IMG/VR virus record: IMGVR_UViG_3300020084_000129
Coordinates: 1-21,352 of that record
Strand: one strand, 5' to 3'
DNA from: a virus
Length of the DNA: 21,352 nucleotides
The notes under the pieces were generated by a model. The model had not been told where the DNA came from. It saw nothing but the letters and a program-made list of their open reading frames with translations, and made no database searches. Positions 266 to 12,785 of the stretch are shown here, piece by piece. A program made the translations under genes and the position numbers. Position 1 is the first letter of the stretch, and every line of letters starts with the position of its first letter.

Positions 266-553
266 ATGTCAAAAAATCCAAAAGTTGAAGTTGTTCTTAA
301 ATTTGGCACAGTTAAAGCAAATCGTGTGCTTGACGCTTTTGCTGCTTTGCTAAATGATCATGATAATAAAGTTTATATGATGAAAGATACAAATTATACA
401 ATCTATAAAAATTTGTATGAAGAGGTTAACACCGCTCTTGTGAGAGCACAAAAGGGATCTGGTTATTCCAGTCGTGGTGTGAAACGTCAATTTATTGATC
501 CTGAAAAACGTGAACATTTACTCAATCAGGACTACCGCCCAGAATTTAATTGA
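266..553 (+). CDS. Hypothetical protein, 95 aa
   Basis: I chose the ATG at 266 because AAAGGAG lies at 252-258, about 8 bases upstream. The frame stays open to a TTG/ATG-like codon at 236, but that would overlap the previous stop and has no ribosome binding site. The protein begins MSKNPKVEVVLKFGTV, is rich in Lys, Asn and Asp, and ends in a basic tail with RGVKRQFIDPEKREHLL. There is no signal peptide or membrane segment. It sits directly upstream of the clamp gene, so it is probably co-transcribed with the replication genes. I do not recognise a characterised family; it resembles conserved hypotheticals of cyanophages. Confidence 0.75.
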   Translation: MSKNPKVEVVLKFGTVKANRVLDAFAALLNDHDNKVYMMKDTNYTIYKNLYEEVNTALVRAQKGSGYSSRGVKRQFIDPEKREHLLNQDYRPEFN

Positions 554-573
554 TTATGAAACTCAGAGAACCT

Positions 574-1239
574 ATGAAACTTTCTGAAAAGACCACTGAT
601 CTGCTTAAAAACTTTGCCAGTATTAATCAATCACTGCTATTCAAAGCTGGAAATAAAATTCGTACTGTTTCAGTAATGAAGAATATCTTTGCTGAAGCAA
701 CAATTACTGAATCAATTCCTAAGGACTTTGGCATTTATGATTTAAGTCAATTTCTTTCGGGACTGAGCATTCACAATGATCCAGAAATTCTTTTTGAAGG
801 ATCTTCATACCTTTTGATTAAAGGTGATGGTCATACTACAAAATACTACTTTTCCGATCCCAGTGTAATTGTAAGTCCTCCAGATAAAAATCTTTCTCTT
901 CCTTCAGAGGATGTTTGCTTTGAATTGGCTTCTGGTCAATTGGATAAACTTTTGAAAGCTGGTAATGTTTATGATCTTCCAGATCTTACTGCAGTTGGAA
1001 ATGGTGAGCGAATTAGTCTTCTAGTTCGTGATAAAGAGAATGCAACATCAAATGAGTTTTCGATTGATGTTGGTGAAACTAGCTCTGTATTTACTCTCAA
1101 CTTTAAATCAGAAAATATTAAGATTCTTCCTGGACGATATGAAGTTGTGATGTGTCCTCAAATGGCAAAGTTCACAAACAAGAATATGAACCTTGTTTAC
1201 TTTGTGGCACTTGAACCTGATTCTAACATTGAATCTTAA
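574..1239 (+). CDS. 45: Sliding clamp, DNA polymerase accessory protein (gp45)
   Basis: This is the processivity clamp, which forms a ring that tethers DNA polymerase gp43 to DNA and in T4 also serves as the mobile activator of late transcription. The 221-residue product starts MKLSEKTTDLLKNFASIN, close to T4 gp45 (MKLSKDTTALLKNFATIN), and ends in VYFVALEPDS, like the T4 C-terminus. That homology decides the start at 574. Upstream in-frame starts at 556 (ATG) and 550 (TTG) would add 6-8 residues and cannot be excluded; the 556 ATG is 2 bases after the preceding stop. Length matches the family (T4: 228). Clamp-loader genes 44 and 62 follow, as in T4. The start is less certain than the identity. 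Confidence 0.93.
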   Translation: MKLSEKTTDLLKNFASINQSLLFKAGNKIRTVSVMKNIFAEATITESIPKDFGIYDLSQFLSGLSIHNDPEILFEGSSYLLIKGDGHTTKYYFSDPSVIVSPPDKNLSLPSEDVCFELASGQLDKLLKAGNVYDLPDLTAVGNGERISLLVRDKENATSNEFSIDVGETSSVFTLNFKSENIKILPGRYEVVMCPQMAKFTNKNMNLVYFVALEPDSNIES

Positions 1240-1256: not shown

Positions 1257-2204
1257 ATGACAACTAATGATTTCCTGTGGGTGGAAAAGTACCGCCCACG
1301 TAAAATTGAAGATTGCATTCTCCCAGAATCTAACAAAAAGTCTTTCATGGAGTTTCTAGCTGATAAAGAAATTCCAAATCTTCTCCTTTCTGGGCCTCCT
1401 GGAATTGGTAAAACTACGGTTGCAAAAGCATTATGTGAAGAAATAGGAGCTGATTGCTATGTCATCAATGGATCTGATGAAGGACGATTTTTGGACACGG
1501 TACGGAACAAAGCAAAAAACTTTGCTTCGACCGTCTCACTTCACTCGGATGCTAAACACAAAGTCATCATCATTGATGAGGCTGATAACACAACCCACGA
1601 TGTTCAACTCTCCCTACGGGCTAATATTGAGACGTTTTATAACAACTGTCGATTCATCTTCACTTGCAACTACAAGAACAAGATCATCGAACCCCTCCAC
1701 TCCAGATGTGCCGTTATTGACTTTTCAATTAAAGGAAAAGAAAAAGCACAACTTGCAGCAGAATTTTACAAGCGTCTCAGGTTTATTCTTAAGGAAGAGG
1801 GTATTAAAAATGATCCAAAGGTTGTTATTGAATTAGTCAATAAACACTTTCCTGATTGGCGACGAGTTTTAAATGAGTGTCAACGATACTCTGCTGGTGG
1901 TGAAATTGATTCTGGTATTCTTAATTGTTTTTTTGATGTAAAAGTAGATGATCTCACTAAATATCTCAAAGAAAAAAACTTTACTGAAGTCAGAAAGTGG
2001 GTGGTCTCCAACTTGGACAACGATTCTTCTAGTTTACTTCGCAGGATTTATGACGCCTGTTATAGTTGCCTTTCACCCTCCTCTATCCCCGCTGCCGTTC
2101 TTATTATTGCTAAGTATCAATACCAATGTGCGTTCGTGGCTGATCAGGAAATTAACCTCCTAGCAGCACTAACTGAAATCATGGTTGAGTGTAACTTTAA
2201 ATGA
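1257..2204 (+). CDS. 44: Clamp loader large subunit, AAA+ ATPase (gp44)
   Basis: With gp62 this ATPase opens the gp45 ring and loads it at primer-template junctions. The 315-residue protein has the N-terminal WVEKYRPRKIEDC motif of clamp loaders, Walker A GPPGIGKT (46-53), Walker B IIIDEAD (104-110) and the SRC arginine-finger motif (149-151). T4 gp44 has 319 residues, so it is full length. It starts 17 bases after gene 45 in a T-rich gap with no clear Shine-Dalgarno. Its stop (2202-2204) overlaps the ATG of the HNH endonuclease gene. The last 10 or so codons, ending TEIMVECNFK, are present a second time just before gene 62. This suggests the present 3' end arrived with the endonuclease. Confidence 0.96.
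   Translation: MTTNDFLWVEKYRPRKIEDCILPESNKKSFMEFLADKEIPNLLLSGPPGIGKTTVAKALCEEIGADCYVINGSDEGRFLDTVRNKAKNFASTVSLHSDAKHKVIIIDEADNTTHDVQLSLRANIETFYNNCRFIFTCNYKNKIIEPLHSRCAVIDFSIKGKEKAQLAAEFYKRLRFILKEEGIKNDPKVVIELVNKHFPDWRRVLNECQRYSAGGEIDSGILNCFFDVKVDDLTKYLKEKNFTEVRKWVVSNLDNDSSSLLRRIYDACYSCLSPSSIPAAVLIIAKYQYQCAFVADQEINLLAALTEIMVECNFK
2171..2202 (+). repeat. Direct repeat copy 1: present 3' end of gene 44
   Basis: These 32 bases recur at 2711-2742, exactly 540 bases downstream, with 30 of 32 identical. The two differences (2180 C versus T; 2185 T versus G) are synonymous in the gene 44 frame. This copy is the functional end of gene 44 and also carries the region upstream of the endonuclease start at 2201. 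Confidence 0.9.
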
Positions 2205-2716
2205 AGAATTTAAATTTAAAACAACATCCATTATACAAAGATTATTATGGAACTGAAGATGGTGGTGTTTACAGTAAAAAATTTAAATCTGGTAGAATTA
2301 AACAACTAAACCCGATGCGTTTAAACACTGGATACTACTTATTGGGTTTATGCTATCAAAAACAACGAATACAAATTTTACATCATAAATTTATTGCTGA
2401 TATATTTGTTTCAAACCCAAATAATTATACTGAAATAAATCATAAAGATGAAGATAAATCAAATAATTGCTCTAGCAATTTAGAATGGTGTGACAGATGT
2501 TATAATATGCAGTATTCTAAACATAAGTTAGTTGACTGTAATGCTAAATGGTATGTTATTGAAAATAGGAAAACAGGTGAGATATTTAAAATATTTAATT
2601 TAAAACAATGGTGTGAAGAAAATAATGTGAATAGAATATCCGCTCATAAAGTTGTTAATGGTAAATGGAGACATACCAAAAATTTTATTATAAAAAAATT
2701 GGATACTGCAAACTGA
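2201..2716 (+). CDS. HNH homing endonuclease, free-standing
   Basis: A 171-residue protein of the NUMOD/HNH type seen in phage homing endonucleases. The N-terminal part has Y-x-x-Y, GGVYSKKF and NTGYYLLGL. The HNH core follows, with ILHHKFIADIFV (59-70), INHKDEDKSNN (79-89) and NLEWC (93-97). The C-terminal segment 129-168 (IFNLKQWCEENNVNR...GKW) resembles a NUMOD1/IENR1 helix-turn-helix DNA-binding module. Such enzymes nick or cut homologous DNA that lacks the insertion and spread by repair. The gene overlaps the gene 44 stop by 4 bases and runs 6 bases into the second repeat, so the insert is almost all ORF with no room for an intron. It is more A+T-rich than its neighbours, consistent with transfer. 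Catalytic residues look intact. Confidence 0.88.
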   Translation: MKNLNLKQHPLYKDYYGTEDGGVYSKKFKSGRIKQLNPMRLNTGYYLLGLCYQKQRIQILHHKFIADIFVSNPNNYTEINHKDEDKSNNCSSNLEWCDRCYNMQYSKHKLVDCNAKWYVIENRKTGEIFKIFNLKQWCEENNVNRISAHKVVNGKWRHTKNFIIKKLDTAN

Positions 2717-2742
2717 AATTATGGTGGAGTGTAACTTTAAAT
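2711..2742 (+). repeat. Direct repeat copy 2: orphan 3' end of gene 44
   Basis: Read in the former gene 44 frame this copy and its flanks give LQTEIMVECNFK followed by a TAG stop at 2742-2744, one base before the gene 62 ATG. It looks like the ancestral 44-62 junction left behind after the endonuclease insertion. It also provides a GGAG (2726-2729) upstream of gene 62. Confidence 0.88.
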
Positions 2743-2745
2743 AGT

Positions 2746-3126
2746 ATGGAACTGAAGGATTGGTTAAATTCTATCAATAGTACAAAGCAAAATATTTTAG
2801 ACGAAGATTCATCTGTTACTAAAGAATATCCTCCATTCATTATTAACAAGTGTATGTCTGGGCATATTGATACTGTGCTATATGCAAATGAAATGAATAT
2901 GAATCATAGCTTGGACAAAAAGCTACAATATGATTTTTATATAAATATTGTCAGGAAACGGAAGAGATTTTCTCCGTGGCTAAACAAAAATAAGATCAAA
3001 GACCTTGATGTAGTCAAATCTTACTATGGTTATAGTAATGAAAAGGCTGAACAAGCTTTGAAAATTCTTACTGAAGAACAAATTAATTTTATTAAATCAA
3101 AATTTGAGATTGGAGGAACAAAATGA
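2746..3126 (+). CDS. 62: Clamp loader small subunit (gp62)
   Basis: A 126-residue protein starting MELKDWLNSINSTK. It is the partner of gp44 in the clamp-loader complex, assigned by its position between 44 and regA and by resemblance to cyanophage gp62, with EYPPFIINKCMSGHIDT, a DKKLQYDF segment, RKRKRFSPWL and YGYSNEKAEQAL. It is shorter than T4 gp62 (187 residues), as is usual in cyanophages. The ATG at 2746 is preferred over upstream in-frame codons, which would run back through the orphan gene 44 repeat. The stop overlaps the regA start by 4 bases (ATGA at 3123). Because of the endonuclease insertion it is now separated from gene 44 by about 540 bases, so the translational coupling expected between these subunits is probably changed. 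Confidence 0.88.
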   Translation: MELKDWLNSINSTKQNILDEDSSVTKEYPPFIINKCMSGHIDTVLYANEMNMNHSLDKKLQYDFYINIVRKRKRFSPWLNKNKIKDLDVVKSYYGYSNEKAEQALKILTEEQINFIKSKFEIGGTK

Positions 3127-3554
3127 GTGTTGTTCAAGAACCTGAAGTCCATTGGTCTCCCGACCAAATGGTTGAAATTATTTTGAATGAACCTGATGAT
3201 TTTTTGAAGGTTCGTGAAACACTTACCCGTATTGGTGTTGCAAGCAGAAAAGAAAAAACACTTTATCAATCTTGCCACATTCTTCACAAACAGGGCAAGT
3301 ATTACATTGTACACTTTAAAGAATTGTTTGCCCTTGATGGTAAACATGCAAATTTAACTGTTAACGATGTTCAACGTCGTAATCGTATTACTCAATTACT
3401 TGCTGACTGGGGATTGATTACAATTGTAAACGTTGATAAAATCTTAGACATTGCACCACTAAATCAAATCAAAGTTCTTTCTTACAAAGAAAAAGATGAG
3501 TGGACTCTTGAAACCAAATATAATATTGGTAAAAAAAAGAAAGCCGAAGAATAA
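3123..3554 (+). CDS. regA: RegA translational repressor
   Basis: RegA binds the translation start regions of early phage mRNAs, in T4 including 44, 45 and its own, and represses their translation. The 143-residue product matches T4 RegA clearly: EPDDFLKVRETLTRIGVA, LYQSCHILHKQGKYYIVHFKE, RRNRI..LLADWGLI and EWTLETKYNIG. It has an N-terminal extension of about 14 residues relative to T4 RegA, and a Lys-rich end. The start ATG is within an ATGA overlap with gene 62, with GGAGG at 3112-3116. It is the last gene of the clamp operon; a strong terminator follows 48 bases later. Confidence 0.95.
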   Translation: MSVVQEPEVHWSPDQMVEIILNEPDDFLKVRETLTRIGVASRKEKTLYQSCHILHKQGKYYIVHFKELFALDGKHANLTVNDVQRRNRITQLLADWGLITIVNVDKILDIAPLNQIKVLSYKEKDEWTLETKYNIGKKKKAEE

Positions 3555-11411: not shown

Positions 11412-12785
11412 ATGTCTAATCCTTGGCAGCAAATATTTGAATCACACAGAGAACAAATTGAGCAAGAATATATTGCTGAAAAGTATGGTCAGCACAAGAG
11501 CGATGAAAGTCAAGAGACTCAAGCTCTTTATGATCTTCGTAACAAATTGAAGAACATGGGTAAGGACGCAGTGGTTGCATACCTTAAGCGTTCTAAAATG
11601 TCTCCTGAAAGAAAGGCAAGACTTGCTAGAGAATTGGGAATTAATATTACTGAAGAATTTGTAGATGCTCAGCATAATTCTTATGAATTGGAAGGTGATT
11701 CTTTTGAAGCACTTCAAGAAGAAGCAAAAGTTCTTGTAAGAGTTACTAAGGAAGATGGATCTGTATTCCAAAAGAAAATCCCAGCATCGCAATTAGATGA
11801 TTATAGAAAGAGATATAAGACTGTAGTAGTTGTTGGTGGATCTGAGCAATCCAAAACGAATGTTACTGCAAAGAATGAAGAGTATGTAAGTGAGGCTAAA
11901 AAGAAAAAGCCAGCACGTTGGTGGGATAATGATGGTGACGGCATAGGCTATGAGCCAGGCGAAGTATCTGGTAAGTTTAAAAGAAAAACAAAGAAAGAAG
12001 AATATTCAGATTGGAGATCTGAAGTTCCTGAAATTGCGGAAGCAACTAAAGCTCAAAAAAGTGTAGAAGGAAAAGCTCACGCCTCTTATGAAAACCAAGA
12101 GGGAGAGAAAAAAAAAAGGAAAAAGAAGTCCGCTAAGTCCGAGTGTAGTTGTTCACATGAAGTAAAGGAAGCTGCTGAGATTCTCGCTTACGAACTTGGT
12201 GGGGATCTTGTTGATATTAAGGAATATGTAAAAGCTGCTACTAGTGTCATTAAAGCTTTTGTTAGACCAAAGCCTATAGTGATACCTCAAGTTCCATTTA
12301 TTAGACCAACTAAACCAGGTCCAATTGTACCTGCAACACCGCAGCCAGCCCCAGTTCCTGCACCTAAGCCTGGAAAACCTGTTCCTGCACCTAAGCCTGA
12401 AAAACCAGTGCCCTCACCTAAGCCTGGTAAGCCAACTAAACCAGAACCACAAACAAAACCCCAACCTCAACCTCGACCAGCTATCAATCCAACAAAAACT
12501 GGAATATTGGTTAAAATTGACCCAAAAACAGGAGCAATAACTGGTGGTCAAACACAACCACAAACAAAACCACAAACAAAAGCACAACTACCCTTAACAA
12601 CACTTAAACCACCAAAGGGAAGAGGACCAGGTCCTGGTACTGGTGGTAGAATACCAGGAGGGCTACCAAATTTATGTACGCCAATTCCAAATCCTTTAAC
12701 TGGAAGACTGCAACTTCCACCATGGTGCAAAACAAAACCTTACTTACATGATCCAGTTGCTGACCCAGGAAGACTAAAACTTTGA
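11412..12785 (+). CDS. Proline-rich, probably virion-associated protein, 457 aa
   Basis: Modular protein of unknown function. Residues 1-75 are a charged helical region (MSNPWQQIFESHREQIEQ). About 105-140 is a small domain ending KRYKTVVVVGG. At about 168-190 WWDNDGDGIGYEPGEVSGKFK contains a DxDGDG calcium-loop-like motif. A Lys-rich stretch follows, then a CSCS pair near 244. The last 170 residues are Pro/Lys/Gln-rich with tandem VPAPKPGKP units and Gly-rich spacers. Several I/V-x-E|A sequences (EIAEA, YVSEA) resemble prohead-protease sites. A late promoter candidate lies upstream. TAGGA at 11405-11409 is unusually close to the ATG. A structural, head- or tail-associated role is plausible but unproven. 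Confidence 0.82.
   Translation: MSNPWQQIFESHREQIEQEYIAEKYGQHKSDESQETQALYDLRNKLKNMGKDAVVAYLKRSKMSPERKARLARELGINITEEFVDAQHNSYELEGDSFEALQEEAKVLVRVTKEDGSVFQKKIPASQLDDYRKRYKTVVVVGGSEQSKTNVTAKNEEYVSEAKKKKPARWWDNDGDGIGYEPGEVSGKFKRKTKKEEYSDWRSEVPEIAEATKAQKSVEGKAHASYENQEGEKKKRKKKSAKSECSCSHEVKEAAEILAYELGGDLVDIKEYVKAATSVIKAFVRPKPIVIPQVPFIRPTKPGPIVPATPQPAPVPAPKPGKPVPAPKPEKPVPSPKPGKPTKPEPQTKPQPQPRPAINPTKTGILVKIDPKTGAITGGQTQPQTKPQTKAQLPLTTLKPPKGRGPGPGTGGRIPGGLPNLCTPIPNPLTGRLQLPPWCKTKPYLHDPVADPGRLKL
12354..12434 (+). repeat. Three 27-base tandem repeats coding for VPxPKPxKP
   Basis: Units at 12354-12380, 12381-12407 and 12408-12434 encode VPAPKPGKP, VPAPKPEKP and VPSPKPGKP. The first two are nearly identical in DNA; the third has more synonymous change. 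They form part of the proline-rich stalk of the 457-residue protein and could change in copy number. Confidence 0.9.

Follow-up and report, generated by a model that had tools for sequence, protein, structure and literature searches.

Clamp-loader locus of the window

The window, by which we mean the whole stretch of DNA that was analysed, is a 21 kb IMG/VR fragment (21,352 nt). It carries the genes for the sliding clamp, the clamp loader and a regA-like repressor, with an endonuclease gene between genes 44 and 62. The features of this region are as follows.

550..1239, + strand: gene 45, sliding clamp; ORF as listed with an uncertain start codon, named from its position 5' of gene 44 and from annotated relatives
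1257..2204, + strand: gene 44, clamp loader large subunit (phrog_168, E 2.1e-132; Pfam Gp44_lid), stop codon TGA at 2202-2204
2171..2202, + strand: tail copy 1, the end of gene 44, with a weak SD-like TGAG at 2186-2189; includes the ATGA that starts the HNH gene, and is the recipient's own in the comparison of the window with locus L099
2201..2716, + strand: free-standing, I-HmuI-like HNH endonuclease, 171 aa, intact (phrog_59, E 3e-23; PDB 1u3e, I-HmuI, E 2e-5)
2711..2742, + strand: tail copy 2, the trailing copy of the gene 44 end, with an SD-like GGAG at 2726-2729; seems to travel with the HNH gene, right breakpoint 2742/2743
2742..2744, + strand: TAG stop of copy 2, specific to the window; TGA (within ATGA) in L097 and L099, ahead of an Endonuclease VII-like gene
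2746..3126, + strand: gene 62, clamp loader small subunit (phrog_225, E 3.9e-48; PF16790)
3123..3554, + strand: regA-like translational repressor; an ORF whose position matches the annotated regA of relatives

The first-pass annotation had reported that the last 32 bases of gene 44 occur on both sides of the HNH gene, and a recount confirmed this. The copies at 2171-2202 and 2711-2742 are identical at 30 of 32 positions, with a start-to-start spacing of 540 nt, and the probability of an equally good match arising by chance within the region is about 4e-11. The remaining 17.8 kb of the window had no repeat comparable to the gene 44 tail copies. Both differences between the copies are synonymous in gene 44 (ATC/ATT, Ile, and GTT/GTG, Val). 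The ATG of the HNH ORF overlaps the TGA of gene 44, and its own stop (AAC TGA) falls within copy 2 (ORF end 2716) rather than ahead of it. Copy 2 reads ..LQTEIMVECNFK-stop, and the TAG at 2742-2744 is followed by a single T and then the ATG of gene 62. The encoded protein is related to phrog_59/959 and to I-HmuI (1u3e), so that its HNH domain is akin to those of known homing endonucleases. Two contigs from other samples are identical to the window from the HNH start through copy 2 and gene 62, base by base in one (L095) and by protein match in the other (L096).

Short repeats in metagenomes may be collapsed or chimeric, and the window is itself an assembled fragment, but an assembly artefact or chance similarity is an extremely improbable explanation for the duplicated end: the same structure is present in many samples and in the cultured isolates S-8S53 and DSL-LC03, which refute an artefact, and the chance probability is as given above.

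Elsewhere in the window, 27-nt tandem repeats at 12351-12431 encode a proline/lysine-rich stretch within the ORF at 11412-12785.

Gene 44 tails and nuclease families in the 44-62 gap

The gap between genes 44 and 62 is variable in cyanophages, ranging from about 0 to 2.7 kb and containing dam, phrog_2000 and other genes, and empty 44-62 junctions are present in relatives. We scanned 154 non-redundant 44-62 intervals, the majority of them on metagenome contigs, with a 21-nt profile (PSSM) of gene 44 ends, taking the 99th percentile of shuffled sequences as the threshold, and 20 loci had a second tail that exceeded it. Second tails lie behind 21 of the 36 ORFs in six nuclease clusters and behind none of the 287 other ORFs (dam, phrog_2000, 2OG oxygenase and others), with a cluster-level Fisher p of 2.4e-7; the nuclease queries used in sampling enrich for nucleases, and the association test compares ORFs inside the same loci. 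Another 107 gene 44 junctions, picked solely by one tail codon, gave one clear second tail (L411, which carries the same HNH and Endonuclease VII genes as L099) and one borderline case, both at loci with nuclease hits, while the 102 loci without a nuclease hit showed no second tail above threshold. The trailing copy is found behind nuclease genes only. Nuclease-free phages with the duplicate, named in the first-pass annotation as evidence that would count against an endonuclease insertion, were absent among the 287 ORFs and 102 loci just described.

The trailing copy is 15-32 nt long. It is often in frame as the C-terminus of the nuclease (..VECEFK-stop) and nearly always provides the ATGA start of the next gene: in 19 of 20 such scars the next ORF begins at the ATGA of the scar, the window being the exception. 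The other 15 of the 36 ORFs in the nuclease clusters have no detectable trailing copy.

The six clusters cover two HNH types, an Endonuclease VII type and PD-(D/E)XK types, and nuclease genes of at least five kinds have inserted at the gene 44 end with a short tail copy behind them. The tail forms the nuclease C-terminus in three families, with ends that read, up to the stop, ..RRKQVECEFK in the HNH_3 type (L018), ..LKECEFK, ..KRECEFQ and ..LMECEFK in the Endonuclease VII type (PF02945; L157, L159 and isolate S-8S53, respectively) and ..NRVECEFK in the L023 family. Members of the PD-(D/E)XK family PF11645 (PDDEXK_5) are present in L002, L020 and L121, with a second phrog_5018 protein in L157. 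Several loci carry tandem nucleases separated by tails, in the order HNH-tail-EndoVII in L097 and L099, PD-(D/E)XK-tail-HNH in L002 and EndoVII-tail-PD-(D/E)XK-tail in L157; L097 combines a left half of the window type with a right half like that of L099, and may be chimeric. In T4-like cyanophages, the gene 44 3' end is probably a hot spot for the insertion of free-standing, presumably homing, nucleases from several unrelated families.

The L023 family is an unannotated family of 174 aa adjoining gene 44 (L023:3945-4466, with relatives in L024, L075, L114, L117, L118, L030 and L119). Neither Pfam nor PHROG gave a hit for it, and tblastn against 50,697 phage records found no match. A PD-(D/E)XK fold is predicted by its AF2 model (pLDDT 81.5), which resembles archaeal Hjc (Z 9.8) and I-Ssp6803I (Z 7.2); a Foldseek search with the model found nothing below E 0.01, which leaves the fold assignment at moderate strength, and we regard the family as a candidate new family of homing nucleases. 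Its tails have drifted (VECEFK, VEYELK, VEFELK, IKFDLK), as expected where the stretch now serves as the nuclease's own end.

Two further observations concern individual nuclease genes. The HNH gene at L099:2501-2845 has a 168-nt in-frame deletion relative to that of the window, with both tail copies kept, and is possibly a decaying nuclease. About 100 nt past gene 44 in L018, L128 and L130 there is a two-gene cassette (MARNPYDL.. and HNH_3); between its genes lies a conserved, TCTTACACACAGACACACA-rich stretch that may contain a promoter of its own.

I-HmuI is encoded within an intron in SPO1-type phages. Its relative in the window differs in being free-standing.

Identity islands and the origin of the two copies

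Comparison of diverged phages shows that the nuclease and its trailing copy form an island of identity with edges at or near both tail copies. The window and L099 share 99.4% identity over the HNH gene, compared with 86.7-90.4% in the gene 44 flank and 86% downstream. On the left, the differences cease 9 nt short of where the gene 44 stop ends, and on the right, the first difference is the base directly after copy 2 (0 nt). Between L158 and L160, the Endonuclease VII genes reach 98.1% identity and the flanks 80-81%, and the island edges lie 5 and 0 nt from the tails; L121 and L124 likewise diverge from the base after copy 2 (right edge 0 nt). In two other comparisons, L130/L128 and L106/L114, the left edge is 101-114 nt upstream and not in the tail, which we read as co-conversion of the gene 44 end.

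The same nuclease and copy are also found ahead of different downstream genes, and in L118 a foreign 21-nt tail (ATGTGAGTGTGAATTCAAATGA) stands ahead of the nuclease, behind a complete and different gene 44 end. At L118:2474-2504 two gene 44 tails are thus back to back, the phage's own (..GCGAATTTAAGTAA) and the foreign one, with the latter starting the nuclease. Among cultured isolates, gene 44 of S-PRM1 abuts the next gene with no insert, while S-8S53 has an Endonuclease VII gene and an ECEFK tail in between; the two near-isogenic isolates are 94.7% identical in gene 44 and 98.7% in the next gene. A nuclease with a trailing tail is also present in the isolate DSL-LC03. Features typical of a free-standing HNH homing endonuclease, a patchy presence and horizontal movement into a homologous empty site, are evident in the window/L099 island and in the empty junctions of relatives. 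The view of the first-pass annotation, of an endonuclease that is inserted between duplicated ends of its target gene and mobile as a cassette, is upheld by these islands and by the restriction of the tails to nucleases, since nuclease and tail together form a high-identity segment between diverged phages. The tail copy seems to travel along with the enzyme gene, allowing it to slot in beside differing neighbour genes.

In the isolates S-RS29 and S-8S29 (L315 and L316), a related HNH gene lies at the far side of the gap, flanked by dam and gene 62, and has no tail copy. Together with the 15 copy-less ORFs, these two show that the copy is not essential for residence. Another relative, in isolate SynMITS9220M01 (L314), overlaps the end of uvsX through an ATGA and has no uvsX tail copy behind it, and this gene was set aside as a candidate for extending the arrangement to a second locus.

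A passive origin of the trailing copy would be that a coupled junction was duplicated once per lineage and kept only to supply the next gene with a ribosome-binding site and an ATGA, with no role in recombination. The use of the scar ATGA by the next ORF in 19 of 20 cases is consistent with this, as is the translational coupling of the clamp-loader genes in T4 (PMC2988022), but several independent pairs have right breakpoints exactly at the end of the copy, identical nucleases and copies precede different downstream genes, and non-nuclease genes at the same junction never have the copy. We consider a purely passive scar unlikely.

The first-pass annotation had further proposed that the nuclease brought the upstream copy with it, as a recoded end resistant to cutting, and that the downstream copy is the displaced native end, a polarity like that of the yeast WHO elements. 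For the window this fails. Over 36 nt, copy 1 of the window and that of L099 have 3 mismatches, and each goes with its own phage's gene 44, whereas copy 2 is identical (32/32) and, with the HNH gene, is common to both. Similarly, copy 1 of S-8S53 is the lineage-typical VECNFK (as in S-PRM1 and S-8S55) and its copy 2 a foreign MECEFK, and the Endonuclease VII trio, too, has a recipient-specific copy 1 with a shared or foreign copy 2; copy 1 of L106 and of L117 equals that of nuclease-free relatives. Replacement of the host 3' end by a resistant version from the donor, as in WHO, is not seen in window/L099 or S-8S53, and the other loci are mixed. Copy 2 of L121 matches the nuclease-free junction of L021 over 22 nt while copy 1 differs, and copy 2 of L103 equals nuclease-free L033, both of which fit the proposed polarity. 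So do L018-type loci, in which copy 1 ends in a non-overlapping TAA and copy 2 retains the native ATGA overlap, and the L130/L128 and L106/L114 comparisons, with their co-converted stretch of about 100 nt of gene 44 ahead of the nuclease. L019, initially considered as a nuclease-free twin of L121, was left out because its contig stops 7 nt past the point where the gene 44 stop codon begins.

Recoding for resistance to cutting, as an explanation of the two synonymous changes, was likewise rejected, as the ATC is absent in L099 and GTT-GAG is common without a nuclease (102 of 107 loci with that codon). Uninserted phages had been expected to match copy 2; they match neither copy exactly, and the nearest nuclease-free gene 44 is about 80% identical to that of the window. 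Overall, an imported, resistant upstream copy is improbable as the general rule. A mixed polarity is what crossovers at varying points within the tails would give, and crossovers do seem to fall at different points inside them. The tail copies are too short for phylogeny, and calls of origin are weakened by some copy-2 sequences being equal to the commonest native tail. Copy 2 of L097 and L099 ends in the ATGA that starts the Endonuclease VII gene, and that of the window in TAG-T-ATG at gene 62, so its 3' edge is the point where the arrangements part.

Proposed role of the trailing copy and related systems

Free-standing homing endonucleases are usually assumed to depend on long homology on both sides of the cut. 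The gene 44 site suggests a way of bypassing this need where the downstream genes change, in that a piece of the target gene goes along with the nuclease, on its downstream side. We favour, as the probable reading of the sequence comparisons, a portable cassette at the gene 44 end whose trailing copy serves both as a right homology arm and as a ready ATGA translation start. The typical cassette would comprise a nuclease ORF starting at the gene 44 ATGA, followed by a copy of the last 15-32 nt of gene 44. A putative cut by the nuclease at or near the gene 44 end of a recipient would leave a left broken end that pairs with the donor's gene 44 and a right broken end that pairs with the trailing copy, which could work as a portable arm because the genes behind gene 44 vary among phages. 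The position of the crossover would vary within each tail, and either copy could then appear native. The copy would also restore the translational start of whichever gene comes next, and selection may keep it for both functions. In T4, genes 44 and 62 are translationally coupled (PMC2988022), so an insertion without the copy would part the next gene from its start signals. Against the homology-arm reading, 15-32 nt is a short arm. That unrelated nuclease families convergently gained the same 3' piece of the target gene, as a portable arm and translation start that permit homing despite a non-homologous downstream side, is a plausible but more tentative proposal.

The trailing tail provides a sequence signature for new homing nucleases, and it flagged the unannotated PD-(D/E)XK-like family described above. 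Natural pairs of empty and occupied isolates are available for direct tests.

The cassettes link phages with two eukaryotic systems. In the yeast WHO elements at FBA1 (Coughlan et al. 2020, PMC7282813), as at the phage loci, a nuclease gene lies just 3' of a conserved host gene and precedes a piece of the same gene's 3' end, which in WHO has been proposed to act as a homology arm in homing, and both systems include tandem nuclease-fragment clusters (as in L097/L099, L002 and L157). The WHO proteins are LAGLIDADG/zinc-finger proteins of yeast nuclei, a type not found at the phage loci, which have HNH, Endonuclease VII and PD-(D/E)XK types. WHO elements substitute a resistant version for hundreds of bp of FBA1 (PMC7282813), whereas the phage tail is 15-32 nt, copy 1 is usually the recipient's, and the copy also gives the next gene its translation start. 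In the mobile ORFs of fungal mitochondria (Allomyces atp6; Glomus atp6, atp9, cox2 and nad3; Beaudet et al. 2013, PMC3630166), a nuclease ORF is again found between two copies of the target's C-terminal coding region, in frame in some cases, but there the copies are long, and the C-terminus that came with the insertion is the foreign one, with the native end downstream, opposite to the polarity of the window.

We found no description of a nuclease with a trailing tail in phages in the literature searched, which left subscription papers outside, and a text search of the T4 review (PMC2988022) gave no mention of duplicated target-gene ends. In other respects the cyanophage genes resemble the free-standing homing endonucleases of T4-like phages (SegF, SegG and MobE, PMC2988022; F-CphI, PMC6083498), which are phage-borne, lie between conserved replication genes, are of HNH or Endonuclease VII type and spread selfishly during co-infection. 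F-CphI is a cyanophage nuclease with an Endonuclease VII-type catalytic motif, and while its target is psbA and not gene 44, it is a precedent for homing nucleases of this type in cyanophages (PMC6083498).
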